Of a DNA stretch of 64,000 nucleotides, positions 95 through 59,757 are shown one piece after another. Where the stretch lies: assembly GCA_029834535.1 (NCBI GenBank), contig JAQMWT010000612.1:1-64000 (forward strand), read 5' to 3'. The notes under the pieces were generated by a model, which saw only the letters and a list, made by a program, of their open reading frames with translations, did not search any database and had not been told where the DNA came from. The translations under genes and the position numbers were made by a program. Source of the stretch: Chrysophaeum taylorii (taxonomy: Eukaryota; Sar; Pelagophyceae; Pelagomonadales; Pelagomonadaceae). Within the stretch, counting starts at the first letter, position 1, and every line of letters starts with the position of its first letter.

Positions 95-820
95 TCACAT
101 GGTGGTATTTGAGGGCTTGAACATAGCCTGAGTTTTACGAGCCTGTGTTCGCACGAGAGTTACAAGAAAGTTAAGATGCTCCAGGTGCATCTGAGTAATA
201 AGCCGAAGATCCAGTGCGAATGGCAGTTGAGTGGTGGAGTCTGTGGCTGCATCGGTTACTGATAAGACTAAATGAGCAAGTGACGGATGTTGCGTTAGAC
301 TGCTAGTCAAGAGAGTATGTAGCTCCTTTGGCATATGATAGGTGCGTATGATGGTTGCGCGTATATGACAAGCTGAGCACTCATCACAGGGGGTTGGAAG
401 GAGTAGCATTACGCACATACGATAGGTTGTATACTGATCGGTGTTGTGACAAGCGCAACAAATGTTAATGGTGATAGTTGAGATGGGAATGTGACCATTC
501 TTCTTGTGGTCATCTGTGTTGAGGTGACTCAGCACTTCAGTGGGGAGTTCACTAGGTGCTTGTGACTTCGAATTATATGTGGTGGAGGCAAGAAATGTAG
601 GTTGCCCCAAATCGTTGAGGCATTGCGTACAGTAGGATGACAGAATGAAACGTTCACGTTTGGGGCCTCTGTAGCAGCCAATAGAAGCAATAGCAGGAGC
701 AGCTTCCCAAAATGTAGTAATGGGTAGGCGCATGGATATGAATGTTGTTAGTTCCACAAACAGTGAAAAGTCAGCAGATTCATAGATCGAGTTGAGTGCC
801 GTAGAGATTTCCGCTCGCAT
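95..820 (-). CDS. accessory 3' reading frame of copia A, cysteine-rich, unknown function
   Basis: A 241-codon frame downstream of RNase H, where ordinary copia elements have only the LTR. It is not a chance frame, because copy A2 has a clearly related protein (19316-19894) sharing long blocks such as LTQMHLEHLNFLVTL-like and DDHKKNGHIPISTIT. Cysteines occur as pairs (YCTQC, CCACH, CDECSACH), the spacing of a zinc-binding protein. I see no signal peptide or membrane span, so an envelope-like role is not supported. It is probably the C-terminal part of a longer product, since related sequence continues upstream toward 1131. Function unknown. Confidence 0.55.
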   Translation of the reverse strand: MRAEISTALNSIYESADFSLFVELTTFISMRLPITTFWEAAPAIASIGCYRGPKRERFILSSYCTQCLNDLGQPTFLASTTYNSKSQAPSELPTEVLSHLNTDDHKKNGHIPISTITINICCACHNTDQYTTYRMCVMLLLPTPCDECSACHIRATIIRTYHMPKELHTLLTSSLTQHPSLAHLVLSVTDAATDSTTQLPFALDLRLITQMHLEHLNFLVTLVRTQARKTQAMFKPSNTTM

Positions 821-1178
821 AAATGAAGAGATGGGGAGTAGGGAGCACGGAAGCTCTCAGAGAGAGAGATCCTCGTTCAATCAGGGCAAATCCATGTTGA
901 GGCCATCCTGGAGTGTTAGGATTGTAGAAAATATGTTCAGCTGGTGTCGGTGAGACAGTAGCAGCCTGGGAGGTAGTAGGAGTGACAGAGGCTATGGGTT
1001 GTCGCTTTTGCGACAACTTGGGAGAAGGCTCGGCCGTGGAAAGCGAGCGTGGAATTGTCCTTCGAACGACTGGAGAGATGCCACGGCCACGGCCACGGGA
1101 GTGCCAAGAAAAAGACATGAGCGACACTCACACGACACGTACAAAAAACATTGTGGCAAAAGAAGGTAAGGCCAGGGC

Positions 1179-1984: not shown

Positions 1985-3200
1985 AGCATTTGGATGTGAA
2001 CATGCGTGGGTGCATGCACACCACGCGAAAATTTGCCCAAGACTTGCGAGAAGTCAGGTCTGCAGGCAACTTGCATGAACACCAGCTTCCAAGGAGGGTG
2101 GCAAAGTGCGAATTGATGTACAACTCTGTTTTAGAGCTGGGAGTGCCATCTTTATACTTGAAGGACGATGACATAGGATATTTAAGCGGGGTCAGTTGCT
2201 GCAAGACTGGGTGATCAGCGAAGAGTTCATCCAGCTTGGCTTGCACATCCAGAGAAATGGAACCGTCAGATGTGCGACACACACGCATGCCTATGAGGGT
2301 ATGGACAGGATCAAACTGCTCTACAGCATACCGTTTGTGGAGGGCATCCTGTAACTCGGTACGAAGAGGGTCATCATTGGACACAATAACAATGTCGTCT
2401 ACAGACAGACTGCATACGACGAACTTAGCATGTGCGGATACTCGAGCGTATAGGCAAGAATCCGAATGCAGGCATTAGTAACCAAGGCTACGGAAGAAGC
2501 CGTCTATCTCTTTGTTCCAAAGAGATGGTGATTGCCGAAGTCCATAACGTGACTTCAGCAGTTTCGGTAGACGTCGGCCCTTGTACTTTGCATCTTGGCG
2601 TGGGCGAAGTAACCATCGACGTGCGGGTAGCGGGCAAGTAAGTCAGTGCGCAACGGGAGAAGAAGACGAGCTAACAACGCATGTTCCCCCTCTGAGCAGA
2701 TAGCAGACCAGAGGATACCACCACCGAGATGAAGGGCGGAGAGGGCGGGAGACTTGAACGTAAGAAAGTGGTGGCGAAGATCCCAGCGGAAGTCGGCGAG
2801 TTTGCCACCAGCGGCTTTGTAAGCACCAATAGTAGACGCCTGTAACCGGGCTCGGATAGTTTTCATAGAAGTGGCCTTGCGGGTGTTGGGCTGTTTGGAA
2901 CCTGGGACAAGAATGAGGTCATCTTGTGCAAAAAGGTCTTTGTAAGAAGGAAGCAAGGGCGGCGGTGACATAGAGCCAGAATCGTCGGCGAGAGTGTTAG
3001 AAGAGGGAGAAGAGGCAGGAGCAGGGGACGAAGGAGGAGCTGAAGGAGGTGGGGAGTGCCCCCTCTGAGGATGAGGAGTCCGTGTCCCCCTCTGAATGAC
3101 ATGGTCTTGGATAGCGGTGTGGGGTGTGAGCGAGAAAGGCGCGGGAGGAGCATGATGCGGAGGAGCAAGTTCAGGATCAGGAGTAGGATGCTGGAGCATG
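1985..3200 (-). CDS. reverse transcriptase and its N-terminal linker, copia A
   Basis: The palm part shows DDPLRTELQDALHKRYAV and the GMRVCRTSDGSISLDVQAKLDELF block that precedes RNase H in copia. The YVDD-equivalent box is better seen in copy A3 as SVDDIV. The linker N-terminal to the palm is Pro/Ser-rich and contains QRG(T/H) and EGE peptides encoded by purine runs (see the polypurine finding). The linker also carries YKAAGGKLADFRWDLRHHFLTF, shared with B. The domain is a fossil with breaks and is less complete than the A3 and B copies. Confidence 0.85.
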
Positions 3201-3410: not shown

Positions 3411-4380
3411 TCATGTTGGGGAGTGTTGAGTTGGTTGTAGAGTAGCTGTTGCGGACTCAGGATAGCATGATGAATGCGCTCGAGCGTGGCGTTCGGGAGA
3501 AGGTTTGTAGCTTTGAACGGTGTGTATCACCGCCCATGGGAACATGATGGCTGGTTCCACGATCTTGGCGCCACGATAGTGAGCATTAAGGAGAGAACGA
3601 AGGCGAGTTGAGGAGGCGGAGGCGATGAAACCGATGGCGGACTCAACTTCAAAGTTAAAGTGGTGCATGTACGGCGGGAAGGCGATGAGTTGAATGCCCT
3701 TATCGACGCGGTACGGGGAGGTAATGTGCTGGCTAAAGTAGGGCTTGAAGGCATCGGAGTAGAGGGTGCGCATGTGCACGTTGAGTTGTGTACGACAAAA
3801 GTCATACACAAAATCCAGAGCTTGAGTGAACTCCGTGGCGTTGGTGGTGCGTGTAAAGTACACCAAGAGAAATTTCGAAATGAGTTCCTTGAAGACGATG
3901 ATATGTGTGAAGCCTCCCCATTCGGATGGGATGGTCACATAGCCGCCGTCGCACGCCCAGACTTCGCCGGCTTTGTGAGTTTGCTCAAAAGAAGGCTTGG
4001 TCGCATTGAAATGCTTGTGCGGGTGGCGCTTGTTGTGTGCGATGCAGTCGGTGCATAAGTCGCGATATGGTATGTCAGAAGCAGAGAATCCAGGGCGAGC
4101 AAGTACGTTGGGGGCCTTGGCAGCGACGTTGTCGGGGCAGTGATGCACCCGGTGGAAGCGATTGGCACGTTCTTTGGCATTGAGATATTCGGTGGATCCG
4201 TGTGCGAGGGACTTACGAGGAATGGGATGAGCGGGAATATGCCGTTTGCGCCGAACATCGAACTTGAGTTCGGTGTCTAAGGCAGGGGAAGGCGGTGCGT
4301 CGTCATCCTGGTGCGCAGCAGGGTCACTTGGAGGTGCATCCTCATCATCACGAGTAGCGAGAGTATCTTCGTAGGACGAA
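3411..4380 (-). CDS. integrase domain of copia A
   Basis: Inserts element cDNA into host DNA. The N-terminal zinc-binding HHCC part is visible as HRVHHCPDN and CTDCIAHNKRHPHKH (about 4040-4160). The catalytic core then shows the three acidic positions: WACDGGYV (about 3946), LYSDAFKPYFS (about 3755) and FNFEVESAIG (about 3645). The last two are about 35 residues apart, as in copia-type D,D-35-E integrases. It lies directly after the methyltransferase domain and one SLNY junction motif. Confidence 0.9.
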
Positions 4381-4419: not shown

Positions 4420-6346
4420 GAAATAGACATCATAAAAGATTGTGCCAAAGACAAGGTATCTGTGCTGCACGTGGTGGAAGCTTGATCAACGGTCATGAAA
4501 TTGGATACATAGGATTTCTTCGTCACGGCAGCAGTATGTTGGAAGGTAGGGTCCAACATAAGGGATTTAATATCGGCAACGAGGAGCGAAAGGTGCTTGT
4601 ACAGAGTGCTGTACGTACCGGCAGGCAGAGCATTGCTGAGCATGTCACAGCAAAGGTCATGGCGTAGAGACAAGAGGAAAGATTCCTGTTGTTTGGTGTG
4701 GTTGTTAGCACGAATCAACTCCGGTCGAGTGGGGTAGCGTAATTTCCCGTTGCGAGGGTCGAGTAAAATAATATTGGCATACCCTCGGACGGTGGGCAAT
4801 GGAGCAAGCATGGAGTGGATTTTAGAGCCGAGTTTGCGGTCACTTCCACGAAGGTACCCTATATAGCGACTATGAGATAGGTGGTGATCTTCCAGAGCAA
4901 AATGAGAATCCTTGTAATCGAAAGAGTTGTCGGTGGCCTTGTAGGTAAGGCAGCCAGGCATCACAAGAGAGCATCTGGACAAGAGTTTTTGTATGGCGGT
5001 GCCATAGGTGGCAGCGGAGCCAACTTGGGGAAGGGCTTGGACTATCCACAAGTAACCCATAAACGGCTCCAAATATATGGACCTGTCCCGGTCGCGGGGG
5101 ATGTCGGAAGCAGTGAACGTATACGTGCTTCCAAAAGCGTCGATGGAAGTCGGATATTTGGTGGTGGCGTTCTCTATGGTGAGGTTGCCGTCGGAATGGT
5201 GGCCACCAGTTAAGAAGTAGGAGTTGTGTGATGTTGATGAGGTTGTAAGTAATAACCTGTGTGACGGTTGGTTAGTTTCGAAAACGGTTATGTAATAGGA
5301 CACAGGAGTGGGTGAGTTAGTGTGTAAGCTGGCAAACAGTTATAGAGGATTGTATTGACGTATAGCGTTGCAAATAAGTTGTAGTTTGTTGTTGACGTGT
5401 TTATGTTGGTTAGATGTGAATGTACACTCGGCTCCATAGAGGAGCGTTTAAAGCACAACTGATGATAAGTACACTCGGATTGAACAGAGTGAGTACGTTG
5501 CTCGTGAGCCTGTTGTGAGTGAAGGCGAAGCAGTAACATATTGAGGGATTCAAGGTCAGCCATAGTAAGCTGAGCAGAACCTGTGCGAGAGTAAGGTGCA
5601 AACGTTTTAGGAACGGGGATATATGGAGGATCGGGGAACACCCGGATCCAGTCTTTGGATACGTGTTTAGGTAGCCAAAGGCGCTTGGGAATAGCTTGTA
5701 GATCATCCACGATATTTAGGAAGGGGCGTGGATGGAGGATGGGCCACGATGATAGTTTAATTGGTCCAGTAGAATATCTGCGAGCGATGCATATCCATCT
5801 TTCTCTAGATTGGTAGTCGCCACAGAGGTAGGTCGGGAACCTATCAACAACATCGACACAGTAATCAAGTGTAGTATGGATAAGGTTGGCCACTGTGATG
5901 TGGTCTTGATGACAGTATTTGTGCGGAGGCGTCATCTCAGCCAGTAGTACCAAGGGCTGGAGTAACTTGATGACAGACAGCATGCTGTCGAAAAGAGAAT
6001 CGTCCAGCAGGCTGTGTAAGTCTTCTGTCTTATGCTGTTTTAGTAAATTCTTGTTCGTGCAGGGAGGAGTGATCTCAATTATATCACAATAGAATGTGCG
6101 CCTTTCCTCTGGTGAGATTAGGTGAAGATGGTTAATAAAGGCGGGGAGAGATTCAAATAATAATACAGTAGGAAAACGGTGGCGTAACATACGAACAAGC
6201 GTATCATCAGACTCAACAACAACTTTTACATTGATATTTAAGCCTAAGTCATTAGTGGCTTGAGACAGGAACGCCGGAGTTGACAAACCAGAACAAAGTA
6301 ACATGACAGAGGGTTTGCGGAGATTGGACTCTTGTGAGAGAAACAC
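4420..6346 (-). CDS. DNA (cytosine-5) methyltransferase domain inside copia A
   Basis: Expected to transfer a methyl group from S-adenosylmethionine to carbon 5 of cytosine. Motifs in canonical order: I-like LLCSGLSTPAF followed by a VVVESDD acidic turn (about 6190-6300); IV as IIEITPPCTN with the Pro-Cys nucleophile (about 6055); VI-like LLAEMTPP (about 5935); VIII as CGDYQSRERW, matching the QxRxR signature (about 5800-5825). A long variable target-recognition stretch follows, then IX-like RYPTRPELIRANN (about 4730) and X as LSNALPAGTY (about 4620), matching GNAVPP. It sits between protease and integrase. B and C carry homologues. Fossil with breaks. Family assignment rests on the motif series and their order; sequence specificity cannot be read. 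Confidence 0.85.
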
Positions 6347-6495
6347 TGGGCGTGAGTAGTCAGGTTAATGGCTGCGTATTTTGCTGAACAAACTTGTTCT
6401 GTTTCCGAAGATTGAGAACCAAAGGGCGAATCCACGGGCGATCTGGTAAAACTCTTTGGAGTAGGTAGTTGTAGTATGCCAGTAGATCCCTGTTT

Positions 6496-7399
6496 TCATG
6501 GTATCGCTTGAGGGGAAATGCGAGAGCGAAGTTCCAGCCGCTTGTCGCGCGCGATGTTGTAAGTGAGACAAGGGAGAGCAGGTAAATTAGCTGCTACATA
6601 GTGTATGGGTATACGTACATCTTTGTCTATGCGGCTCGTGACAGCGCTGAGCTTTGGCTCAGCTCGATCATTGAACACAGTGGTCAGGTTCGTCTGGTTC
6701 CACTCGAGCATGCTCAGGATAGCGAGATGTCGGTCATGCACTGGCTGAAGACATAAAGCGAAGTCGATCTTAACATAGCCAACTTGTGGATGATCTGGTA
6801 GGGGAATAACGATGTTGCGTGTTAACATCATGTGTGATGCCCGTTGTTGTCCTGTTGCCGTCTGAATAACAATCGGCGCGTATTTGGAGTCCAATGGAAT
6901 TATATGATTGGGTATTGCAAAATCGTAAGTGGACATCAATGAGATGGTAGCACAAGAGTCAAAATATAGAAAAGAGCAATGTGGAGGGACACTGTTTACC
7001 TTCATGTAGTTGGTGAGGAAGGCGTTTTCCGAATGTGGGCAAGTAGTGGAGAGGCTGGCTGTGAAGAAGTTCTTCAGCAATAACAGATTCGTTGGAATAA
7101 TAATCGGTTGAACAGGTGGTGATGGTTCGTCAGCCTCATCAGCCATGCCGTGCTTTTCATCAAATGACGATAGCGAAGTATGATCGGCATCCCTTTTGGT
7201 TTCGGCTTGTGATGGTAGGTTGAGGGCAGATTGGACCTGTGAAGATAGCGAGGACAATAATGCTGGTGGTAAAGCCGAGATGGCGGAAGCGGTAAAGAGG
7301 TTAGACACAGTATTGGAAGGATTACCCTGTGTGTTTGTAGTAGGAGGAGTTGCCTTTGGGGTGGGAGCAGTAACAACAGTATGGTGTTGTGGCTCCACG
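6496..7399 (-). CDS. aspartic protease domain of copia A
   Basis: Cleaves the element's polyprotein. The active site is FDSCATISLM (about 6930-6960), the copia D-S/T-G-A box with Cys in place of Gly. A following IVIQTATGQQRASH stretch and the LAILSMLEWNQ block resemble the flap and C-terminal half of copia proteases. B has the matching active site as ADTCASQHVI. It follows gag and the SLNY motif at 7400-7420. Cys at the third position is shared by both subfamilies, so it is an ancestral feature and not damage. Confidence 0.75.
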
Positions 7400-7420: not shown

Positions 7421-9221
7421 GAGGATAGATGAACGTCTACATCATAAATGATGTCTTCTGCAAACATGAGCTGTTCGTTTAGACGAAGTAAACTACTGTT
7501 GTCCTCAGTAGATGTCGTTGACAGAATGTCAGCTGATTGTAATAGAGTCTCAAATAACTTGTTGATATTCTGTTGTAGCTGAGCCGTGGTATCGTTATCT
7601 GTCACATGTTTCGTAAGTTCGCTACACTGTTCTCGCAGGGTGTTTAAGGTGTGGTTTGTTCGATCTAATAATTTCATGTTAGACCGAGAGGACCTGTCAA
7701 AAGTGCGGGGGTAAATTGGACGGTCATGGGACTGTCCGGCAGTTTTCTTGGTGACGTAAGAATCACCAGGACGATAATACGATAAATCGCTGCGAGAGAA
7801 AGGCTGGCGAGCATCATTAGAGTTACGCAAGCGTCTAGCATTAAACGTGGAAGATGTACCAGGTTGGGACGAAGTGATGAAGGCGAGTGTGTTAGCAGTT
7901 TGAGTCAGACTTTTGTCTGATGAGTCCAAAGTGTTTGTAAGTAGTAACTTTGGCTTTGGTTGAGATGATAAACCTTCGACATAGGGTTGCCAAGAAACAG
8001 GGCGTTCTAAGCGTCTTTTGTTCGACCCATTTGATACTACATTGTATAGGTCTAATGCGTATTCTAAAATGTAGCTAGGGTTGGTAGGGTGACACAATCG
8101 TTCAGCTTCTGGCACAGGCCGAGATGAAGATCGGGTTTCATACATATAACACCAATCTACCCAACCACGATCGTAACGATTGTTGCTGGTATTATCGGCA
8201 TAATGCCGATGTATCTCTTCATAGATTTTTCTACAAGAGTGCCAAAGTCGAATTGAAGGTCAGTCTCTTCCTGGTTAAGTTGGTAAGAGATTTGCCTAAA
8301 TGCTAGGACAGCTTCGATAAATACATGGACATACCAGTTAGGATTATAAACAACAGAGTTAAATTGCTGTTTCAAATAGGACACATCAGTAGTCGAAACA
8401 GACTCGTAGTGACTAAAGGCAATGAGCATAATAGCTCGAACCTTGTTGGGTAAATAAATTTTGTTGTATGCCTCATTGATGGCGGGCCAGGCCGCAGGTG
8501 CTGGTTTTCCAACACTTTCGAGATTGAAGTAAGTATGCAAGAATGTAGCATACGTGTTCTGATAAGTGTGCCAGTCAGCAGCAGTTAACGAAAACATGGT
8601 AACAGGGGCACGAACACGGGTGTCGAAAGCTAATGCCTTCGGGTGCGCGCGATTTAAGATTCGTTCCTCTTCTAAGAAACGGGCATTGATTTCAGGACGT
8701 AATGCCTTGACTTCATAGTCGTAACAGACAGTAGCTAGCTGAGCTACTTCTGCATCAGGTAAGTGGGGGAAAGCTTCGTTGGTGAAATGCCATTCCTGAT
8801 ACTCAGGGGGCAATTCATCAACAGCTAAACGGAGATCAGCAGCCCTATCGGTCTTCCATTCCAGGAAAACGCGATCGAGAATTTGATTCCGGAGGATCTC
8901 GTAGTCCTTGCATGACCGAGTATATGCTTCGTACGAGTCGTACTCGAGGAAGGCATCGGCATGACTGGACCGTAACAATTGCTTAATGTGCTTGATTTGC
9001 AAGGATACCTTGCGAGTCTGAAGCTGAAATCGATTTCCATCGTTAAGAAACTCAACTACAGGAGCTTCGAGCTTCAATATATCCGCACCTGTGATCGCCT
9101 TGGGTGCGGCTCGTGCTGCGTGTTCTGCCATAGCAGTTGACGGGGAACCTGTGGGTTCAGTCACGCAGTTGACACTGTCTAGACATTCTAAGGGGGTCTG
9201 TCTATCGGTGTCTATGTACAC
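7421..9221 (-). CDS. gag of copia A
   Basis: Forms the virus-like particle. The N-terminus (MYIDTDRQTP, or the internal MAEHAARAAP start) leads into a helical region. A capsid-like block follows: ADWHTYQNTYATFLHTYFNL, then LPNKVRAIMLIAFSHYESV and FNSVVYNPNWYVHVFIEAVL, shared with B at 10010-10380. The C-terminal part is Ser/Thr-rich with FDRSSRSNMKLLDRTNHTLN. I do not see a CCHC zinc knuckle. Assignment rests on position 5' of protease and conservation in A, B and C. Fossil with breaks. Confidence 0.8.
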
Positions 9222-9637: not shown

Positions 9638-9651
9638 CTGGGCCCATAACC
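9638..9651 (-). promoter_or_regulatory. primer-binding site for an initiator tRNA-Met half molecule
   Basis: Element strand reads GGTTATGGGCCCAG immediately next to the LTR. This complements the anticodon arm of eukaryotic initiator tRNA-Met and not the tRNA 3' end. Drosophila copia is known to prime from such a 5' half-tRNA. The same 14 bases follow the LTR at 38699-39076. The site fixes the LTR edge and orientation. Confidence 0.85.
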
Positions 9652-9966
9652 TGCAGAGCATTTAGCAAGCAGTGGTAAGTCACCTGGGAAACCATCCCGT
9701 CTCATCATGAACGTCTGGAAGTATTTAATTCGGGGAATGAAAAGGTATGTTCCCTATATCCTCAGAACACGACAGGCGGCATCTAGAACTACACGAGAAA
9801 GGTAAAGTGTATAGTGCTACATACCTCGGGACGCGCTAGACCATGATGATGAGCGTAGGCACAAATCAGAGGACTATTTGATTGTGTAGAAAGGAAGAAG
9901 AAGGGTAAGGAAGAGATCACGTTCTCAACGGACGGATAAGGGTAAGAGGCAGCAGATTTCTCTGCA
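9652..9966 (-). repeat. 5' LTR of copia A (315 bp)
   Basis: Bounded by TGCAGAG and CTCTGCA, a 7-bp terminal inverted repeat with standard TG...CA ends. It is followed on the element strand by the primer site. A second copy (17694-18006) differs at only about a dozen positions by eye and forms the 3' LTR of A2. Because the two LTRs belong to different insertions, that difference does not date either insertion. Confidence 0.9.
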
Positions 9967-10009
9967 ACGTGTCCTCACTTTATTAGATACCCGATTCCCT
10001 AAATCAATT

Positions 10010-11278
10010 GTGTATGATTCATCTCTAACTAACATATCCTTTACAGGTCTCTCTAATGCCGATTGGATCAAACACTGCGAAACTTATGCTGGTTTCTTGT
10101 ACACATTCTTTAATCTAGAATCACAAGAGCGCCCCGCACTCGCTATGTGGCCTCAATTAAAGAAGATATATGCACTTACTGCACATCCTAATAAACTACG
10201 TGCAGTAATGCTTTTAGCTTACCATTACTATGAGACAGTGTCTTGTACAGATGTCACTGAGCTTAAATCTCAGTTTAATCGAATGTCCTTAAATGTTAAT
10301 TGGTATGCCCATGTATTTGTCGAACAACTCCTTGCTTTCCAATCTCAGGCAAAGCAATTAAATAATGATGAAGCATCAATCCAATTTAATGATTCCATAA
10401 TCACTCTCAAAGCTCACGAGGAGATCTATCGTCTATATGCTAATCCCTCGGATCACGAGCGCTATTCTCAATCTTTATTGGAATGGTGTAAACTCTACGA
10501 GACACGCTCTGGGAACAACTCGACTCACGATCCTGAAGTGTTAAAGCTAGTTGATCCTAACGACGTTCGTCCGTTATTGGAGTTCCTGTTAAAGATATAT
10601 AATGAAACAAAGTTTTCCTCTAACCGACGCTTGGATAAACCCGCTTCATGGATCCCTTACATCCCTGGTACTACCGCTACCAAGCCACCTAAGGTATTAT
10701 TGATGGATACTATTCATCAATCCCACGACTCTTTAAACAACGCTTACTCGTTGTTAGCTACTGTGGCTGGACAGTCTGGCTTCAACGCTCGTAAGCTTCG
10801 TAATGCAAAAGATAAAGCATCGACAATTTTACCTCGTGACACGTCGTACTATCGTCCACCTTCAAATTATAACGTCAAAGGTACCAGTTTCGATCGTCCC
10901 GTCTACTCACACTCCTCTAACCGTAATGCACGCTCTAATATGTCTCTTATGGACCGGGCTACTTATCAAGTTGATCGTCTTCGCCACCTGTTTGGTAAAT
11001 TGCAGGAAGCGAATCCCAATCCTTCTACCGACTCTAAAATGGTACAGGAGGAAATGAAAAGCTTATTGAGTACCCTCTGGACAACCGCTTCTCGAGCTTC
11101 GACACAGTCCTTAGATCCTGACGAAGCCACCCAAGTTCATCTCTACTTATCTCGAGTTGATACTATGTCCAATACCATATCGAACCTGTTAGAAGCCGAT
11201 AAGGAATCTCATGTTCCAGAAGAAAAGTATCAAACTGAAACATCTGCTCCTGAAGCGCCCCCCAGTGATGCGGAGTAG
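10010..11278 (+). CDS. gag, C-terminal two thirds, copia B
   Basis: Matches the A gag from its capsid-like block onward: SNADWIKHCETYAGFLYTFF, then PNKLRAVMLLAYHYYETV, LNVNWYAHVFVEQLLAF and later NRNARSNMSLMDRATYQVD. The N-terminal part present in A is absent because the element begins here. The C-terminal tail is acidic and Pro-rich. A purine run (11276-11287) lies at the end of this frame, followed by protease. Confidence 0.78.
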   Translation: MYDSSLTNISFTGLSNADWIKHCETYAGFLYTFFNLESQERPALAMWPQLKKIYALTAHPNKLRAVMLLAYHYYETVSCTDVTELKSQFNRMSLNVNWYAHVFVEQLLAFQSQAKQLNNDEASIQFNDSIITLKAHEEIYRLYANPSDHERYSQSLLEWCKLYETRSGNNSTHDPEVLKLVDPNDVRPLLEFLLKIYNETKFSSNRRLDKPASWIPYIPGTTATKPPKVLLMDTIHQSHDSLNNAYSLLATVAGQSGFNARKLRNAKDKASTILPRDTSYYRPPSNYNVKGTSFDRPVYSHSSNRNARSNMSLMDRATYQVDRLRHLFGKLQEANPNPSTDSKMVQEEMKSLLSTLWTTASRASTQSLDPDEATQVHLYLSRVDTMSNTISNLLEADKESHVPEEKYQTETSAPEAPPSDAE

Positions 11279-11302
11279 AGGGGGACTGCTAATACAGAGA
11301 AA

Positions 11303-12271
11303 ATGTTCCACACTTTTCTGTCCATTAAAGATGATAAAATCGATAACATCCCTCAGCCGCTATTGCAGCACATAAATGCTAAAGCTCAGAATGCTATCGT
11401 TCCTCGTCAAGCTCGGGAAACTTCCTCGCACTCCGAGCTCCCCAAAAATCTACCCAACGAAGATAATGAAGATGGTACAGACCCCCCTGTGTTGCTACCG
11501 AAATTAAGTGATGGTTTCACACTCGTCGTTGTGCCTTCCGAACAAACGCAAAGTTCCATGACACAGTACGTGTTTGGTCAAAGCTCGACACATGCCTGTT
11601 ATGCAACAATGCTTAAACTGTACGACGAGTACAATTTACCGCTAATGACTACGCCAGGATATGCTGACACATGTGCTTCTCAACATGTAATTAACTTTAA
11701 ACGTTACGCTGACCCCCTACACATTGTTAAGCTACCCGAGTCCTTGTCACCCGCTATCCAGACTGCTACAGATACGCAGAGTATCACACATGCCGTGATT
11801 ATAAGAACCGTCATTCCCGCTCTCCCAAAGCATCCAAATGTGGGATATGTAAAGCTAGACGTTGCGCTTTTCCTACCCAAGCAAAACGACCATAACGATC
11901 CCGATCTGCACATCATCAGCATGACTCAATGGGGAGAAGATAAACTTGGTATACATCTTTATGGAGTTGAATTTAAAGGACAATCATCTATCCAGAGTAA
12001 AATTGATGATAATGTCAAGATTACTTTGTTTAGACTCAGTAACCTGTTGCCAACTCTACCAATTTATTCGCTACAACAAGCAAAAGCGCGTAAAATGGAA
12101 CTTCGCTCACTACAGTTCAGACTATGTGCTTTTAATGAACAACGCGAAATGCTTAAACTATATTCCACCCTCATGGAACGCGTAATTTACGTCCCATGGC
12201 TCAAAACCATCTTGGAGTCAATGCATTCGCAGCTGCCTTACATACGCAAGCATTTCCCACCTCCTGTATGA
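11303..12271 (+). CDS. aspartic protease domain of copia B
   Basis: Active site GYADTCASQHVIN (about 11660-11690), equivalent to DSGAS with Cys replacing Gly as in A. It is followed by AIQTATDTQSITHAVI and a PNVGYVKLDVALFLP block that aligns with A's PQVGYVKIDFALCLQP. The end, LQQAKARKMELRSLQFRL, also matches A. Processes the polyprotein; lies between gag and methyltransferase. Confidence 0.75.
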   Translation: MFHTFLSIKDDKIDNIPQPLLQHINAKAQNAIVPRQARETSSHSELPKNLPNEDNEDGTDPPVLLPKLSDGFTLVVVPSEQTQSSMTQYVFGQSSTHACYATMLKLYDEYNLPLMTTPGYADTCASQHVINFKRYADPLHIVKLPESLSPAIQTATDTQSITHAVIIRTVIPALPKHPNVGYVKLDVALFLPKQNDHNDPDLHIISMTQWGEDKLGIHLYGVEFKGQSSIQSKIDDNVKITLFRLSNLLPTLPIYSLQQAKARKMELRSLQFRLCAFNEQREMLKLYSTLMERVIYVPWLKTILESMHSQLPYIRKHFPPPV

Positions 12272-12355
12272 CGCAAGGTTACGACACGTTTACTTCATAC
12301 AGTAACTACGTCTCCTAGTTCACGAACCCCTACTGTAACTCTACTTTGCTTTAGG

Positions 12356-14037
12356 ATGTCCACTCCTGCATTCTTGGCGTGCGCTTCTAATGAATTGCAA
12401 ATCAACATCAACGTTAAAGTTCTTGTTGAGAGCGACGACAATATCACGCACATGCTACGAAGACGTTTTGGTAATTCCATCGAAGTTTTCCCATCCCTAC
12501 CCGAGTTCCTTACATATCTCCATCGAGCATCGGACGTTGAACGTGCACGATATTACACTGACATAGTGGAATTGACATCACCATGCACAAATCGCAACAT
12601 AATCAATGGGAGATCCATTTCCACCTTCGAGCGTGATATGGATGATTCCTTGTTTCCAAGTGCTCTAAGTGTACTTGAGCTTTTAAAGCCGCTTGTTCTT
12701 TCATGGAAATGACACCACCACACTCCGCATCGTATGAAGATCATATACGAGTTGCTAATCTCATCTTCTCAACGATGCACTATACGGTGGATATATGTGA
12801 CCGATTTCCATGCTATCTGTGTGGAGATTATCAAGCCAGAGAAAGATGGATCCTCGTTGCACGCAAATATAACACCGGCCATCTTGATCTGCTTTCATGG
12901 CCTAACAAACGAGTCACTTCCTTTCTGGACATTGCAGACCACGCTAATTCCATCAGTCGCAAGTTAATAGTCGACGAACCTTGGACGCAGGTCTTTCCTG
13001 ACATACCATTCGTGTCCACACCTAAAACCTACAACATCTTCAGTCGTACAGGATCCGTGCGCTTAACTGTGACTGAGCTTGAAACCTTAACCATGCTGTT
13101 CCTTCGTCTGCACTCTAACAAAACAGTCGAACATCCCAGTCAAGATGAAATGGAGGGCATTTCTAACTTTCGCCTGGGATTCTTGACTAATTCAAGAAAA
13201 CCACTTGCTTGCATGAGATCTCCTATTGAACTCAAAGCTTTTGTGCTCCTCTACAATATTATGGGACGATTATTCCCTAAATCCATCACATTACCTGTGT
13301 CCTTTCGTATTACAACTATCGAATCTAACCAACCATCTCACAGGTTATTCTTAAATAAATCCTCTACTTCCTCCATCATTTACATCACCGGTGGAAGACA
13401 CACAGGTGGAGACATAACAGTTTCTAACTCCTCTTCTAAATACCAGGCACATATAAATGCATTTGGTGAAACCTATACCTTTCTAACACATGATGCCGGA
13501 ATCGATAAGACTGCTTCTCTCGATCCTGTTACCGGTTTTCTTTGGCTTTGCCAAGCATACCATCATAATAATGAAAATCAAGACACGCGTCGTCTAGTAC
13601 AAGCACTGGTTTCCTATACCTCTCCTGTATTTCACGATTCTTTTGTCTTCTACCCTCAGGAAAATCGTCTCGAATTTATCGATAAAATTTTTGCTTTAAG
13701 TGACATGCATTTGTCCCAAAGCAGATACCTTGGCTTTATTACATCAAGCGATAGGAAGATGGGTGCCAAAGTTCATTCTATATACACTCCCACTCCTACC
13801 ATTCGTGGATTTGCTAATATGCTCGTGTACGATCCACGACTCGATCGCATTCGACATTACTCAACTCGTGAATTGGCACGCGCCAATAACTTCACAGCGT
13901 ACCAAATCAATTTTCTTTTGTCTTTGTCCCCGGACCTATGCTGTGACATAATCGCTAATGCTATTCCGGCTGGAACATATCATGTAATTTATAAACATTT
14001 GTGTCAGCTTGTATTGTCTATGACTTGCGTAAATTAA
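12356..14037 (+). CDS. DNA (cytosine-5) methyltransferase domain inside copia B
   Basis: Second, diverged version of the domain in A. Motif I region STPAFLACASNELQININ followed by VLVESDD; motif IV IVELTSPCTNRN with the catalytic Cys (about 12585); VI-like MEMTPPHS (about 12705); VIII CGDYQARERWILVARKY (about 12820-12860). The target-recognition region, about 270 residues, includes SNQPSHRLFLNKSSTS and ITGGRH, shared with A. Motif IX RHYSTRELARANNFT (about 13860) and motif X IANAIPAGTYHVIYKHL (about 13955-13995) close it. All catalytic signatures survive despite wide divergence from A, which suggests the domain was under selection while the lineages were active. Fossil; not intact. Confidence 0.86.
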
Positions 14038-14299
14038 CGCTATCACCATCTTTTGACCCTGATCATGCTTCTCTAACCAAAAACTATAGGTCAACCTTTT
14101 TCACAAATATACTCCCAACGGATACATCCTTAATATTACACCAGAGTTCCATTACAATGTTATACATCTCTAATAAAAACATTTCATGTTGTGATAATCT
14201 TGCTTCTAACCACGAACTTCCATCTTTTCATCTCGATTCAGTAGCTCATGTCTTCCTCTCTAACACCTCATCCGCAGATATATCATCTCCTACTAAAGA

Positions 14300-15115
14300 A
14301 TGACAAATTCCTCTCATAACGCCAAGACAGCTCCATGAGAAGCATGCACCCTTCGATAAGAAAGTTCATGCCAGGGGCACCCTCGCATTTCGAGATGCGC
14401 AACAACGAGCTACCAATTTTCACAACATCCACCATTCTAGTGATTCTCAAGCTATAAAAGCTGTTCAGGTTATTGCCAGTCCTGGACACCACCCATCTGA
14501 CGTACCCTACCGTAAGTTCTGTGTGGATTGTACGATTCATAAAAACGCTTTCCTCATCCACACCACCTTACCAAGCAACCATCATTCGAAAAAATTTTTC
14601 AACCTGGTGAAGCCTGGGCATGTGACGGTGGTTACGTATCTGTGCTCTCGGAATGGGGATCCTTTCGACATATCATTGTTTTCAAGTGTCTCATTTCTAA
14701 ATTTTTGTTAGTGTACTTTTGTCGTAGCACTAACTCCAGCGAATTTTGTAACGCCCTTGAGTTTGTCCGCAATTTTTGCTCTACTTATGTTCATGTACAA
14801 CTAAAACAAATTTATTGTGATTCCTTTAAACCCTATTTATCTCAGCATGTTACAACTCCCTTTCGTGTTGAACACGGTATTAATATGTCCGCGTTCCCCC
14901 CTTACTTACATGTCTTTAATCATGAAGTAGAAGCCGCTGTTGGTCACATAGCCACTGCCGCGTCTACACGACTCCGGCATATGCTTAATGTATCCTATAA
15001 AGGTCACCCCCTAACAGATCCGGCACCACACTACCCGTGGGCTGTTATACATGCTATCCAATCGTATAATCTCCTCCCTAACGTTTCCTCGAACGTATTT
15101 ATAATAAAGTCCTAA
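14300..15115 (+). CDS. integrase domain of copia B
   Basis: Zinc-binding remnants (HHPSDVPYRKFCVDCTIHK) precede the catalytic core. The acidic triad lies in the CDGGYV-equivalent region near 14625, IYCDSFKPYLS (about 14815) and NHEVEAAVGHIA (about 14925), with D-to-E spacing about 35. The block HYPWAVIHAIQSYNLLPNVS follows. Closely matches integrase of A and B2. Fossil with breaks. Confidence 0.87.
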
Positions 15116-15129
15116 GCCCCCAACAAGTT

Positions 15130-17100
15130 TTGTTGGATCAATGTAATGTTCCCCAACAGGACTACCTCAAACCTTTTGGTTCTGTTTGTTATTTGCATTT
15201 GGAACCTAACGAATTTCATAAATATGAACCTCGATGTCGTCCTTACATCTACTTATGTGGTGCTAATGTCATAAACCCATTAATAACACCCCATGTTAAT
15301 CATTTAGCCGATGTTGTCCTTAATCCTGAAAACGGCCAAGTCCGTGTTTCTTCTAAACTTACCTTTCCTCATCTTATTTCTAAACCTCCTCCTGATTATG
15401 AACAACATCCACCTCCCGCACCTTCACCCGACATTCCCTTCTCTGTTCACAGCACCCCCAATGATGCGGCGCAGAGGGGGAATGCTATGCCTACCGACAC
15501 TGACCACGAGAGGGGGACTCCTTCTCCTCCTGCCCATGCTCCTTCTCCCGTTCCCGCATGTGCTCCAGATGCTTCCGCACCCGCTGTTCCTGTCACCACA
15601 CCTCCTACATCTGAAGTGTCCTCCAACACTTTGCCATTTTTACCATCTTATCGGTCTCTCTATTCCCAGGATGTCCTCCGTCTCACCCGTGGTCCTCATC
15701 ACCCTCAACCTCGTCGCAAAACCAATCTCAAGGATGTTCTTACTCGTATTGCTTCGCCTACTGTTGCCGCTTATAAACAAGCTGGTGGTACGCTTGCCGA
15801 CTTCAAGTATGACCTCTCCAAGCAGTACATAACTTTCTGCGACCCCACCCTCCACTCCCTTCATCTTGCTCATGGCATCCACTGGACGGCTATACCTCCA
15901 GAGGGGGAATTTACACCATCCCTTCATCACCATGTTCACCAAGCGCTTTCACAGTCCTCTTCAGTTATGTGTCATAGGAGCCATAGCCATCCATCGCCTG
16001 ATGCTCCTCACGTTCACTTCTGCGACGACGTCAACCTTGCAGACTTTCACCTTCCTCAAGCTCTCGTTCATCTCATTTCTGAACATGCTCACGCTTTTCA
16101 AGTTCCTCCCGCTCAATATGCTTATGCTTTGTTCACACCCCACTCCATTTTGGATCATAATGACGCTTCTTATGGTGCCTCCGAGCCTCATCTCTCCGCC
16201 ATCGAAGACTATATCACCGTGCAATCGCATTACATTGAGGCCCACCTTGGTGATGCTCCTCTACTAGTTGTTCAACTTGTCGAAGATCCCGATCACGCTC
16301 ATCTGCCCGATAATGTCGCTTCTTACGCAATTACTCATCTGACGACGACTCATGACCCCAGCACGGTTGGTTCGGACGAATACAAGATTCAAGCCAAAGA
16401 TATCAAAATTGATGAATATGAGTTGACCTGCCTCAAAGGTCTCTCAGACGCTGATCGCAAAGCTTATGTCGCTGCCATCTCCAAAGAGATTTTGACATTG
16501 TTAAGTTTGGCTGCTTTAAACTAGCGCTGCCAATGGTCAACTCAAAGCCTATTGACACCCGTCTCGTCCTACGTATAAAAACCAACGCTGCTGGTCAGTA
16601 CATTAAACATAAAGCACGCCTGGTACTACGAGGATTCTTAGCCTCTCTGGGCACCGATTTCTTCAACACATTCAGCCCTATGGCACAGCTTACCGGCATC
16701 CGTTGTGTTTTGGCGCTAGCAGCTCATCTGCGACTTCCCGTCTACCATGTCGACGTCCCTAACGCTTTTGTTCAAGCTCCCATCGATTCTCATGTCTATG
16801 TCAAACTGCCACAAGGCATTTACCTTCTCGATCCCGAAGATACTAAATACCAAGGCCGCCGTCTCCCAAAGCTACTTAAATCTCTCTATGGATTGCGTCA
16901 GAGCCCTGCCCTTTGGAATCAAACCATAAACGGCTTCTTTGATTCATTAGGCTACACACGATTTCGAACAGACACATGCATTTACGCTAAAGTCCAAGCT
17001 GACGCTACATTTCTAATTTGCACGCTCTCAATAGACGACGTCGTCATTACTTGTACTTCGGAAACTCTACGTCGTGAGTTCCACACCGATGTCACCATCA
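15130..17100 (+). CDS. linker and reverse transcriptase of copia B
   Basis: The N-terminal part continues copia integrase C-terminal sequence (QQDYLKPFGSVCYLHLE, YIYLCGANVINPL). A Pro/Ser-rich linker holding two purine runs (15472-15483, 15899-15910) follows. The reverse transcriptase has HKARLVLRGFLASLGTDFF, FSPMAQLTGIRCVLALAA, YHVDVPNAFVQAPI with the first catalytic Asp (about 16750), LPKLLKSLYGLRQSPALWN and the active-site box LSIDDVVITC (about 17030), copia's YVDD equivalent. Fossil with breaks. Confidence 0.9.
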
Positions 17101-17109
17101 ACCACGTAT

Positions 17110-17693
17110 AAAACTGGAGAGCCATCTTCTGATATGGACAAGTTTATTCTTCATACCTTCTCCACCTTACTCGGCAAACTTACTTTTGTCCAATTAGCTT
17201 GTCGCCCTGATTTATCCCAAAGCCTTAGTCGTTGCTCTCGAGGAATGCATAATCCAGCATTTCTGCATGTTCAAGTACTAACAGGAACGCTCCGCTACTT
17301 GCGCAAGCCCGAAAATCGTAATCTTCGCCTCTGGTACTACTCTGGTTCTTCCGCTCTAATGGACCATCTTCGACTTCTTATCGGTAATCGTACTGACATG
17401 GCCACCATGTTGGACTACACTAAAGAACAAGTTAATTCAGGTAATTTTGATCCACTGGTCGCATTCGTTGATGCCGATAATGCACCTTCTTATGAACAAG
17501 ACCGCAAATCTACAACCGGTTACGCTATCTTTTTGTTTGGTTCTCTCATCACTTGGAAGTCTAAGCTACAACCTATTACAGCTACTCCTACGCATGAGAG
17601 TGAACTTATCGCCCATAATATGTGTGCCGATGATGTGGTCTGGTTACGCAAATTGCTAACGGAAATGGCACGTTATAAATCCTCACTTCTATC
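17110..17693 (+). CDS. RNase H domain of copia B, 3' part missing
   Basis: Contains TLLGKLTFVQLACRPDLSQS, GTLRYLRKPENRNLRLW, FVDADNAPSYEQDRKSTTGY and ITWKSKLQPITATPTHESEL, matching A. It stops where the A2 LTR starts, so the last catalytic block and the terminal ADxxTK segment are not present. Confidence 0.87.
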
Positions 17694-18006
17694 TGCATAG
17701 CATTTAGCAAGCAGTGGTAAGTCACCTGGGAAACCATCCCGTCTCATCGTGAACGTCTGGAAAGGTTAATTCGGGGAATGAAGGTTATGTTCCCTATATC
17801 CTCAGAACACGACAGGCGACATCTAGAACTACACGAGAAAGGTTAAGTGTATAGTGCTACATACCTCGGGACGCGCTAGACCATGATGATGAGCGTAGGC
17901 ACAAATCAGAGGACTATTTGATTGTGTAGAAAGGAAGAAGAAGGGTAAGGAAGAGATCACACTCTCAACGGACGGATAAGGGTAGGAGGCAGCAGATTTC
18001 TCTGCA
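17694..18006 (-). repeat. 3' LTR of copia A2 (313 bp)
   Basis: Same sequence as the 5' LTR of A, with TGCA at both ends. On the element strand it is preceded by a short purine run (CGAGGG), the expected place for the plus-strand primer, and followed directly by element B sequence. Confidence 0.88.
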
Positions 18007-39428: not shown

Positions 39429-39445
39429 GTGCCCACCAGCGTGTG

Positions 39446-53448: not shown

Positions 53449-53473
53449 TCCTAACTACTAATCGACAGATGTT

Positions 53474-55617: not shown

Positions 55618-57419
55618 GTGTACATAGACACCGATAGACAGACCCCCTTAGAATGTCTAGACAGTGTCGACTGCGTGACTGAACCCACAGGTTCCCCGTC
55701 AACTGCCATGGCAGAACACGCAGCACGAGCCGCACCCGAGGCGATCTCAGGTGCGGACATACTGAAGCTCGAAGCTCCTGTAGTTGAGTTTCTCAACGAA
55801 GGAAATCGATTTCAGCTTCAGACCCGCAAGGTGTCCTTGCAAATTAAGCATATCAAACAACTCTTACGGTCCAGTCATGCCGATGCCTTCCTCGAGTACG
55901 ACTCGTACGAAGCATACACTCGGCCATGCAAGGACTACGAGATCCACCGGAATCAAATTCTCGATCGCGTTTTCCTGGAATGGAAGACCGATAGGGCTGC
56001 TGATCTCCGTTTAGCTGTTGATGAATTCCCCCCTGAGTATCAGGAATGGCAATTCACCAATGAAGCTTCCCCCCACTTACCTGACGCAGGAGTAGCTCAG
56101 GTCGCTACTCTCTGTTACGACAATGAAGTCAAGGCATTACGCCCTGAAATCAATCCTCGTTTCTTAGAAGAGGAACGAATCTTAAATCGCGCGCACCCGA
56201 AAGCATTAGCTTTTGACACCCGCGTTCGTGCCCCTGTTACCATGTTTTCGTTAACTGCTGCTGACTTGCACACTTATCAGAACACGTATGCTACATTCTT
56301 GCATACTTACTTCAATCTCGAAAGTGTTGGAAAACCAGCACTTGCGGCCTGGCCCGCCATCAATGAGGTGTATAACAAAAGTTATTTACCCAACAAGGCT
56401 CGAGCCATTATGTTCGTTGCCTTTAGTCACTACGAGTCTGTTACGACTACTGATGTGTCCTACCTGAAACAGCAGTTCAACTCTGTAGTATATAATCCTA
56501 ACTGGTATGTCCATGTCTTTATCGAAGCTGTCCTATCATTTAGGCAAATCTCTTACCAACTTAACCAGGAAGAGACTGATCTTCAATTCGACTTTGGTAC
56601 TCTTTGTATAAAAATTTATGAAGAGATACATCGGCATTATGCCGATAATGCCAGCAACAATCGTTACGATCGTGGTTGGGTAGATTGGTGTTATATGTAT
56701 CAAAATCGATCTTCATCTCGGCCTGTGCCAGACGCTGAACGATTGTGTCACCCTACCAACCCTAGCTATATCTTAGAATACGCATTAGACTTATATAGTG
56801 TAGTATCAAATGGGTCGAACAAAAGACGCTTAGAACGCCTTGTTTCTTGGCAACCCTATGTTGAAGGATTGACACCACAACAAAAGCCAAAGTTACTACT
56901 TACAAACACGCTGGATTTAGCAGACAAAAGTCTGACTCTAACTGCAAACACACTCGCGTCCATTACTTCTGCTCAACCTGGAACATCTTCCATGTTTAAC
57001 GCTAGACGCTTGCGTAACTCTAATGATGCTCGCCAGCCTTTCTCTCGCAGCGACCTATCCTACTATCGTTCTGGTGATTCTTATGTCACCAAGAAAACTG
57101 CTGGACAGTCCCATGACCGTCCAATTTACCCTCGCACTTTCGACAGGTCCTCTCGATCTAACATGAAATTATTAGATCGAACGAAGCACACCTTAAATAC
57201 ACTGCAAGAGCAGTGTAGCGAACTTACGAAGCACGTGACAGATAATGATATCACGGCTCAGCTACAACCGAACATCACCAAGCTATTTGAGACTCTATTG
57301 CAATCCGCTGATATTCTGTCAACGACATCTACTGAGGACAATAGTGACTTACTTCGCTTAAACGAACAACTCATGTTCGCAGAAGACATCATCTAGGATG
57401 TAGACGTTCATCTATCCTC
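55618..57419 (+). CDS. gag of copia C
   Basis: The most continuous gag in the window: one frame of 592 codons from MYIDTDRQTPLECLDS to LNEQLMFAEDII. The capsid-like block ADLHTYQNTYATFLHTYFNL, NPNWYVHVFIEAVLSFRQIS and the FDRSSRSNMKLLDRTKHTLN segment match A. No CCHC knuckle seen. Followed by the SLNY motif. Confidence 0.82.
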
Positions 57420-57440
57420 GACCGAAAAGTCGTTAAACTA
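57420..57440 (+). other. SLNY junction motif between gag and protease (element C)
   Basis: ACCGAAAAGTCGTTAAACTA, identical to the copy at 7400-7420 in A, encoding TEKSLNYVEPQ. Confidence 0.75.
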
Positions 57441-58498
57441 CGTGGAGCCACAACATCATACTGTTGCTACTGCTCCTACCCCAATGGCAACTCCTCCTAC
57501 TACAGATACCAAGGATGCCTCCGACACACAGGGTAATCCCTCCGATATTGTGCCTAACTTCTTTACTGCTTCCGCCATCTCGGCGTTACCTACCACCAGC
57601 GTTACTGTCCTCGCTATCTTCACAGGTCCAATCAGCCATCAACCAACCACCACAAGCCGAAACCATAAGGGATGTCGATCATACCTCGCTATTTGATGAG
57701 AAGCACGGCATGGCGGATGAGGCTGACGAACCATCACCACCTGTTCAACCGATTATCATTCCAAATCACTTGTTATTTCTGGAGAACTTCTTCACTGCCA
57801 GCCTCTCCACTACTTGCCCGCATTCGGAAAATGCACTCCTAACCAAATATATGAAGGTAAACAGTGTCCCTCAACATTGACCCTTTTTATATTTTGACTC
57901 TTGTGCTACCATATCCTTGATGTCCACGTCCGATTTTGCAATACCAAATCACATTATTCCACTGGATTCCAAATACGCGCCGATTATTATTCAAACTGCC
58001 ACAGGACAACAACGTGCCTCTCATATGATGCTAGCACGCAATATAGTTGTTCCCCTACCAGATCATCCACAAATTGGCTACGTCAAGATTGACTTCGCCT
58101 TATGTCTTCAGCCAGTGCACAATCGACATCTCGCTATCCTGAGCATGCTCGAGTGGAACCAGACGAACCTGACCACTGTGTTCAATGATCGATCTGAGCC
58201 AAAGCTCAGCGCTGTCACAAGCCGCATAGACAAAGATGTGAGTATTCCCATACACTACGTAGCAGCTAATTTACCTGCTCTACATTGTCTCACCTACAAC
58301 ATCGCTCGCGACAAGCAACTCGAACTACGCTCCCTCGCATTTCCGCTCAAGCGATACCACGAAAACAGGGATCTACTGGCATATTACAACTATCTTCTCA
58401 AGAGAGTTTCACCAGATCGCCCATGGATTCGCCCTTTGGTTCTTAATCTTCGGAAACAGAACAAGTTTGTCCAGAAAAACACTACGCCATTAAAATGA
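57441..58498 (+). CDS. protease region of copia C
   Basis: Acidic linker (DEKHGMADEADEPSPPVQP) then the protease half with STSDFAIPNHIIPLDSKYAP, IIQTATGQQRASHMML and HLAILSMLEWNQTNL, colinear with A. Ends with LELRSLAFPLKRYHENRDLL. Fossil with breaks. Confidence 0.75.
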
Positions 58499-58513: not shown

Positions 58514-59757
58514 GTGTTTCTCTCACAAGAGCCCAATCTTCGCAAACCCTCTGTCATGTTACTCTGTTCTGGTTTGTCAACCCCAGCGTTTCTGTCTCAA
58601 GCCACTAATGACCTAGGCTTAAATATCAATGTAAAAGTTGTTGTTGAGTCTGATGATACGCTTGTGCGCATGTTACGCCACCGTTTCCCTACAGTATTAT
58701 TATTTGAATCTCTCCCCGCCTTTATCAACCATCTTCACCTATTCTCACCAGAGGAAAGGCGCAAATTTTATTGTGATATTATTGAGATCACTCCTCCCTG
58801 CACCAACAGGAATCTAGTAAAGCAGCATAAGACCGAAGACTTACACAGCCTGCTCGACGACTCTCTGTTTGACAGCATGCTGTCTGTCATCAAACTTCTC
58901 CAACCCTTGGTACTACTGGCTGAGATGACACCCCCCCACAAGTACTGTCATCAAGACCACATAACTGTGGCCAATCTCATCCATGCCACACTCGATTACT
59001 GTGTCGATGTTGTTGACAGGTTCCCAACCTACCTCTGTGGCGACTACCAATCCAGGGAAAGATGGATCTGCATCGCACGCAGGTATTCTACTGGACCAAT
59101 CAACATATTGTCATGGCCTATCCACCATCCACGCCCCTTCCTTAAGATCGTGGATGACATACAAGCCATTCCTAAGCGACTTTGGCTACCCAAACATATC
59201 GCCAAAGACTGGATCCGGGTGTTCCCCGATCCTCCACATGTCCCCGTTCCTAAAACTTTTGCACCCTACTCTCGCACAGGTTCTGTTCAGCTTACTATGA
59301 CTGACCTTGAAACGCTCAATATGTTATTTTTGCGCCTTCACTCACAACAGGCTCTCGAGCAACGCACTCTGTTCAATCCGAGTGTACTTATCATCAGCTG
59401 TGTTTCAAACGCTCCTCCATGGATCCACTGCCTCATGCAACTCACCCACTACATGTCAAGGCTTTTACAATCCTCTGTAACGTGTTTGCCAGATTGCAGA
59501 CTAACTCACCCACTCCTGTGTCCTATTACATAACCGTTTTCGAAACTGACCAACCGTCACATAGGTTACTACTTTCAACCTCATCAACATCACATAATAT
59601 CTACTTCCTAACCGGCGGCCGCCATTCTGACGGCAACCTCACCATAGAGAACGCCGCCACCAAATATCATGCTTCCATTGACGCGTTTGGAAGCACGTAT
59701 ACGTTTACTGCCACCAACGTCCCCCGCGACAGAGACAGACCTATATATTTGGAACGA
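58514..59757 (+). CDS. DNA (cytosine-5) methyltransferase domain of copia C, 3' end missing
   Basis: Motif I region CSGLSTPAFLSQATNDLGLN and VVVESDD; motif IV IIEITPPCTNRN with catalytic Cys (about 58797); VI LLAEMTPPHKY (about 58920); VIII CGDYQSRERWICIARRY (about 59040-59075). The target-recognition region is present (for example TGGRHSDGNLTI), but motifs IX and X are absent because the element is cut by the gypsy-like insertion. Closely matches A. Confidence 0.85.

Follow-up and report, generated by a model that had tools for sequence, protein, structure and literature searches.

A C5-cytosine methyltransferase as part of pol in Copia-type retrotransposons of Chrysophaeum taylorii

The 64,000-nucleotide stretch of the Chrysophaeum taylorii genome analyzed here (contig C612, GenBank JAQMWT010000612.1, positions 1 to 64,000; referred to as the window) contains three related retrotransposons that encode a methyltransferase (MT), namely, element 1 on the minus strand and elements 2 and 3 on the plus strand. 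These are Ty1/Copia long terminal repeat (LTR) retrotransposons in which a C5-cytosine methyltransferase is a regular part of pol, located between the protease and the integrase. Elements 1 and 2 share the same order of domains: GAG, protease, MT, integrase, and reverse transcriptase (RT). Copies of the element 1 type are referred to as lineage A and those of the sister element 2 type as lineage A', whereas lineage B is a third group, found by a genome search with the Pfam family PF00145. In the genome (70.8 Mb in 697 contigs), the chlorophyll-binding family PF00504 has 84 matches, and the host is therefore taken to be photosynthetic.

The methyltransferase domain

Positions 6316-4587 of the window (minus strand) encode motifs I, II, IV, VI, VIII, IX, and X of C5-cytosine methyltransferases between the protease and the integrase of element 1. 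As read in the window, they are VMLLCSGLSTPAFL (motif I), VVVESDD (II), DIIEITPPCTNKN (IV), LVLLAEMTPP (VI), GDYQSRERWICIARR (VIII), RYPTRPELIRANN (IX), and SNALPAGTYSTLYKHL (X). The first-pass annotation had described the hallmarks of this family, in order, between a Copia protease and integrase, and the motif readings, the tblastn layout, and the RVT_2 match given below bear this out. The catalytic half with motifs I, II, IV, VI, and VIII lies at 5762..6316, on the evidence of tblastn, a chain of homology to PF00145, and the fold match of the sister copy L029. It is followed by a middle part of ~280 residues between motifs VIII and IX (4887..5761; tblastn and open reading frame ends), which has a frame break near 5340-5350, and by motifs IX-X (4587..4886), where the identity to the L029 piece is 100% and the VIA alignment of the L029 model reaches residue 591.

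The textbook forms of the C5-methyltransferase motifs are PCQ and ENV. In lineage A, PCT replaces PCQ and EMT replaces ENV; the PCQ form is present in lineage B and in the outside relative P0002 (see below). In a 13-row alignment that combines the three lineages with the two outside relatives described below, Cys101 is the sole invariant column, gaps aside, and Pro100, Glu50, Glu142, and Arg188 are among the near-invariant ones. The catalytic Cys, Pro, and Glu and both Arg residues are kept in all 20 lineage A copies examined.

The domain almost certainly belongs to the C5-methyltransferase family, an assignment that rests on its relatives and its predicted fold. A protein search with a joint alignment, which drew on 5.8 billion proteins, yielded two outside relatives. 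P0001, from an MMETSP transcriptome, shares 42% identity with L029 over a stretch of 352 residues, and its PF00145 score of 4.4e-4 falls just under the cut-off. P0002, a 37% identical relative from an ENA contig, matches PF00145 above the cut-off (6.1e-5). In each of the three protein searches, only the 8000 candidates that had the most words in common with the query were scored; within this set, lineage B alone as the query gave no match and the third search returned P0001 and P0002 again. No IMG/VR relatives of P0002 or of a lineage B piece were confirmed.

When the host genome was searched with PF00145, 57 matches were obtained, two of which resemble stand-alone genes. Among the other 55, 18 loci were translated, and 17 of these (the exception is L015) have PCQ followed by EN in frame. 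Eleven of the 17 were aligned, and all 11 rows match PF00145, with the best score at 5.1e-12; a DGGAS protease-like motif is found upstream in the MT frame of lineage B. The two stand-alone host DNMT-like frames are L009:1498-2577(+), with a PF00145 score of 4e-19, and L010:1006-3537(+), with a score of 8e-18. The L010 contig has no SNF2 match at E 1e-10, so this gene does not look like DNMT5.

In searches against PDB, all 22 matches of the joint profile of lineages A and B are C5 methyltransferases (best E value, 9.2e-5). A B-first profile of 13 rows gives 48 matches, of which the top 35 are all C5 methyltransferases and the remainder includes 5 Rieske proteins at E values of 1 and above. With A, B, P0001, and P0002 combined, C5 methyltransferases take the top 9 of 25 places (best, 3.2e-5); the others, at E values of at least 0.4, are mixed with unrelated chains. 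Bacterial enzymes, DNMT1, and DNMT2 appear in the results of the sequence profiles, and DNMT3 does not; in the fold list, DNMT3B ranks further down. The AlphaFold model of L029, which is of low confidence, matches M.HhaI, DNMT1, and DNMT2 in Foldseek and VIA comparisons, and VIA aligns its residues 16..591 with residues 11..327 of M.HhaI, the C-terminal motif X segment included.

Assignment to Copia

In L029, an uninterrupted relative, the MT, integrase, and RT share a single frame of 1691 residues, with an RVT_2 match of 7.7e-42 at residues 1431-1651 and an rve match at residues 784-866 that is below the cut-off (7.6e-3). Because this RVT_2 match lies in the same frame, the MT-bearing element is assigned to the Copia type. 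Among the 60 best RT matches (of 150 listed), 22 are preceded on the same strand by an MT at a distance of 1.5-8 kb, against 1 of 60 with an MT on the wrong strand, in a count that leaves lineage B aside. The longest lineage B frames reach, at their furthest point, the start of the integrase downstream of the MT, and a search with the rve family listed other elements. No direct repeat pair of at least 100 nucleotides is present in 18 of the 20 lineage A loci (loci of at most 10 kb); L034 and L032 have repeat pairs of unclear nature.

Copy number and selection

Genome searches return at least 116 match rows for lineage A, at least 100 for the element 2 lineage, and up to 55 for lineage B (18 inspected). 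Some rows are pieces of a single copy, and the copies number about 110 or more, about 90, and up to 55, respectively. Pooled over 20 lineage A loci, the ratio of nonsynonymous to synonymous polymorphism (pN/pS) is 0.124 for MT motifs I-VIII, 0.312 for the middle part, and 0.067 for motifs IX-X. In the same loci, it is 0.266 for the integrase, 0.252 for the RT (17 copies), 0.196 for GAG, and 0.168 for the protease (19 copies each of the last two). The two motif-bearing MT parts have the lowest values of the seven segments, with an overlapping interval for the protease, and a repeat with a coverage threshold gives similar values. This comparison between domains within the same copies is less affected by the choice of loci. 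The catalytic parts of the MT are under purifying selection.

Between lineages A and A', tblastn identity is 53-66% for motifs I-VIII, 40% for the middle part, and 56% for motifs IX-X, with 59% for the integrase, 65% for the RT, 42% for GAG, and 37% for the protease. Divergence of the catalytic parts has roughly kept pace with that of the integrase and RT, so the MT was probably in place before the two lineages split. The constraint and the copy number exclude a chance open frame. An insertion into a host DNMT gene is ruled out by the position of the domain, between the protease and the integrase or upstream of the RT, across several lineages in the loci examined.

An in-frame UGA codon upstream of the MT

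A TGA codon between GAG-protease and MT-integrase-RT is found at the same place in 18 of the 20 lineage A loci, followed by CTA in 11 of the 18, ATG in 3, ATA in 2, and CCA and CTG in 1 each. The site is also present in L007, L008, and the three window copies. In element 1, it is the UGA CUA at 6360..6362 (minus strand), which has a frame break on either side; in elements 2 and 3, in-frame codons lie between the protease and the MT at 12269..12271 (UGA CGC) and 58496..58498 (UGA AUA), respectively, both on the plus strand. In lineage B, L025 and L026 carry TGA CTA before the protease. Stop codons in the context UGA CUA are known to be leaky. Judging from the codon and its surroundings, readthrough of the UGA is a reasonably good candidate for the way in which the MT is made, and the TGA ATG context would also allow re-initiation.

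Proposed function

Taken as a whole, the account that seems preferable is that of an MT made by readthrough and packaged in the particle, where it would mark the cDNA of the element itself. Most ribosomes would stop at the UGA and release a Gag-protease product, and a few would read through it to give Gag-protease-MT-integrase-RT. The MT would thereby enter the particle together with the RT and integrase and might methylate cytosines of the element's cDNA (or of the RNA-DNA hybrid) before integration, and new copies would thus join the genome already marked. The MT is likely to be enzymatically active in living lineages. That its main target is the element's own cDNA has about an even chance. 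More tentatively, these elements may belong to a large, old Copia clade with a permanent pol-encoded MT and a leaky UGA, which pre-methylates its own cDNA, perhaps outside CpG, and of which a relative is expressed in at least one marine transcriptome. Such a clade would stand for either a separate origin of self-marking retroelements, in addition to LINE, DIRS, and Gypsy, or an ancient one shared with them.

Methylated CpG sites could leave a trace as a mutation bias, and such a trace is unsupported. Differences of the C/T (or G/A) type between copies affect 0.0485 of the sites at CpG and 0.0484 elsewhere. At fourfold sites, split by context, C/T differences amount to 0.118 at CpG versus 0.125-0.175, and G/A differences to 0.153 versus 0.08-0.12. 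For stretches of lineages A and A', the observed/expected ratio of CpG comes to 0.92-0.97, and four loci of lineage B have 1.03-1.10; three other nonsatellite stretches of the window, which differ in GC content, have 0.99-1.26. There is no excess of CpG decay between copies, and CpG self-methylation that persists is therefore unsupported. Marks outside CpG, marks of a transient kind, and methylation of RNA are still candidate explanations.

Several observations count against the proposed account. The absence of excess CpG decay between copies and the mixed signal at fourfold sites are among them, as are the broken state of the window copies and the middle part of the MT, which is less constrained than the integrase or RT. 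The 20 lineage A loci were chosen among the best matches, many of them for long frames, which favors intact catalytic sites. The TGA site is lacking in L033 and L039, and two lineage B loci, L020 and L014, have CGA CTA where L025 and L026 have TGA CTA. A stem-loop after the UGA was rejected, as no RNA structure beyond chance was found 3' of the codon in 6 sequences (z scores from -0.83 to +1.0). By itself, the window MT sequence has no match among the families of Pfam and NCBIfam or among the methyltransferases in PDB. No PDB methyltransferase is found by the lineage A profile alone either, or by the profile of lineage A with P0001 and P0002 but without lineage B. With the lineage B profile alone, the best lineage A frame has an E value of 0.27, behind an unrelated window frame at 0.054; hhalign comparisons of narrow alignments were likewise not significant. 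Finally, the mean predicted local distance difference test (pLDDT) scores of the AlphaFold models are low, 45 for L029 and 50 for a second model.

These profile results bear on the PF00145 membership proposed by the first-pass annotation, which is not recovered from the window sequence alone and is recovered from P0002 and from the 11 lineage B rows. In the same way, the lack of any match to the family, which that annotation had named as evidence against its claim together with a better match to another fold, holds for the single sequence and for narrow profiles and disappears once relatives and structure are considered. The lack of a family match for the single window sequence is also what could suggest some other Rossmann-type or unrelated fold. 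Such a fold is highly improbable: the joint profiles, the PF00145 match of P0002, and the Foldseek and VIA comparisons all point to C5 methyltransferases, and on the two fold comparisons, another S-adenosylmethionine-dependent or unrelated fold was ruled out. A domain of the right family could still be catalytically dead and serve to bind nucleic acid or to provide structure, whether in the particle or during integration, to which the unorthodox motifs IV and VI (PCT and EMT) and the loosely constrained middle part (pN/pS of 0.31) would be congenial. This is quite unlikely, given the retention of the catalytic Cys, Pro, Glu, and both Arg in 20/20 copies, the invariance of the Cys across three lineages and two outside relatives, and the lowest pN/pS values of all segments in precisely the motif-bearing parts.

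The nature of the substrate is a separate matter. DNMT2 acts on tRNA, and the two top Foldseek matches of the element domain are DNMT2 structures (9hgm, 1.1e-6; 4h0n, 1.5e-6); together with the lack of CpG decay, this speaks for a C5 methyltransferase acting on RNA, either the element's own genomic RNA or the tRNA that serves as its primer. VIA, however, places M.HhaI (13.7) and DNMT1 (13.5) above DNMT2 (12.4), and the sequence profiles prefer M.HhaI and the bacterial-type enzyme 8yf3 to DNMT2; the differences are small, and an RNA target is a minority possibility. Alternatively, the MT might mainly hit host DNA or compete with host silencing and so change the host methylome. The abundance of MT-bearing elements, with more than 250 match rows in this one genome, fits this idea, and the available text of de Mendoza et al. 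(2018, PMC5890265) proposes stray host effects in Symbiodinium. However, the fusion to pol predicts that the enzyme would be confined to particles, which makes a host target improbable.

Other features of the window elements

Domain boundaries were drawn by tblastn with domain pieces from other copies. Element 1 (minus strand) has its GAG region at 8047..8975 (94-98% identity to the L030 GAG piece), with a frame break near 8.23 kb, and its protease region, with a DSCAT motif, at 6637..7116 (95.6% identity to the L030 piece). Downstream of the MT are the integrase (rve) at 3446..4106, whose PF00665 score of 6.7e-4 is below the cut-off, and a partial Copia-type RT at 2217..2630, with an RVT_2 score of 2e-5, also below the cut-off; both were placed by tblastn, and the start of the RT, corresponding to ~98 residues of the query piece, is missing. 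Further frame breaks lie between the protease and the UGA and just 3' of the UGA. Because of its several frame breaks, including the one in the middle part of the MT, this copy is unable to make the whole enzyme. Downstream of the element 1 RNase H region, at 95-1127 (minus strand), are open frames of 115 and 253 amino acids with Cys/His pairs. Similar frames recur near 19322-20591, and those near 95-1127 are possibly an extra 3' gene of the MT-bearing elements.

Element 2 spans 9651-18006 on the plus strand and is bounded by LTR-like repeats at 9651..9966 and 17693..18006 (316 nucleotides, 95.6% identity, TGCAGA...TCTGCA ends), with no target-site duplication seen. It contains GAG at 9980..10597 (42% tblastn identity; the N-terminal part was not found), the protease region at 11660..11947 (37%), the MT with motifs I-X at 12329..14001 (placed by tblastn identity to lineage A; frame break near 12700), the integrase at 14543..15088 (59%), and the Copia RT at 16512..17084 (65%). 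Element 3, also on the plus strand, begins at about 55.6 kb and is truncated near 59.75 kb; tblastn places its GAG and protease at 55864..58219 and its MT, cut off before motifs IX-X, at 58544..59754.

A 931-nucleotide block at 54397-55327 was considered as an LTR of element 3 and was ruled out, as it is a separate repeat. This ~930-nucleotide repeat has several partly nested copies in the window (54397-55327, 32726-33678, 21940-22869, and 52578-54269) and is also found in loci L031, L032, L039, and L044, beside MT-bearing elements and not as their LTR. Additional Copia integrase and RT fragments lie at 41524-43706 and 38278-40723, one of them just 36% identical to the lineage A RT. A tandem satellite with units of about 242 nucleotides occupies 43706-52576, aligns at 95-99% when shifted against itself, and abuts a truncated RT of the element 2 type (43408-43706); a single unit in inverted orientation stands apart at 38749-38985.

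Comparison with known systems

The element MT resembles M.HhaI, DNMT1, and DNMT2 in its predicted fold, motif order, and the positions of the catalytic Pro-Cys, Glu, and Arg. It differs from them in its PCT and EMT variants, its ~280-residue middle part, and its fusion to a polyprotein, and its sequence identity to them is only 11-18% over 162-227 aligned residues (VIA). Murine leukemia virus is a retroelement with Gag-Pol readthrough, and the elements described here share with this type an in-frame stop that separates an upstream Gag part from the downstream pol. In contrast to that type, the codon is UGA and lies after the protease (lineages A and A') or before it (two lineage B copies), no downstream RNA structure was found, and readthrough is putative.

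Retrotransposons that carry a DNMT have been described among LINE, DIRS, and Gypsy elements (de Mendoza et al., 2018, PMC5890265), and, as the first-pass annotation had proposed, the window elements are of the same kind, although from another superfamily. The other readings raised in that annotation, a further independent capture and methylation by which the element would evade or use host silencing, are conjectural. According to the available text of that work, the isolated domain of a Symbiodinium DIRS element methylates CG in yeast, the domain of KnitGypsy-Dnmt3 has a ratio of nonsynonymous to synonymous substitution rates (Ka/Ks) of <0.2, and Symbiodinium Copia elements are without any DNMT domain. 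KnitGypsy-Dnmt3 of Klebsormidium nitens, too, is an LTR retrotransposon whose pol includes a C5 methyltransferase; it is present in many copies, and the domain is under purifying selection. However, it is a Dnmt3-type Gypsy element from a charophyte, whereas the window elements have a Copia-type RT and an MT between the protease and the integrase, with no established affinity to Dnmt3. SymbioDIRS-Dnmt3 and SymbioLINE-Dnmt likewise carry DNMTs in hundreds of copies (PMC5890265) but are DIRS and LINE elements, not Copia.

A single sentence in the accessible part of a 2025 article (Mol Biol Evol, msaf176; PMC12344493) mentions LTR Copia/DIRS elements with an embedded DNMT3 and cites de Mendoza et al. 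(2018). The work cited there describes Gypsy, and the accessible part names neither a species nor an element structure; "Copia" may be a slip or a further case. In the portions available, the open-access literature on Copia and other retrotransposon cytosine methyltransferases and on Aureococcus Copia includes no other paper recognized as describing such an element, and the available parts of PMC12477816, PMC9998398, PMC3145265, and PMC6338049 describe no Copia-MT element.

Retrotransposons armed with the class of enzyme used to silence them are described in PMC5890265 for two lineages of algae and for elements of three types. In the Copia case, the MT has been retained while at least two sublineages diverged, and its catalytic parts are under stronger constraint than the integrase and RT. 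This suggests a recurrent association and an enzyme that benefits the element. As the domain is part of pol and uninterrupted copies exist, the role of such enzymes, be it on cDNA, RNA, or host silencing, is directly testable. The Copia carrier would add a further type to the known LINE, DIRS, and Gypsy elements with a DNMT.
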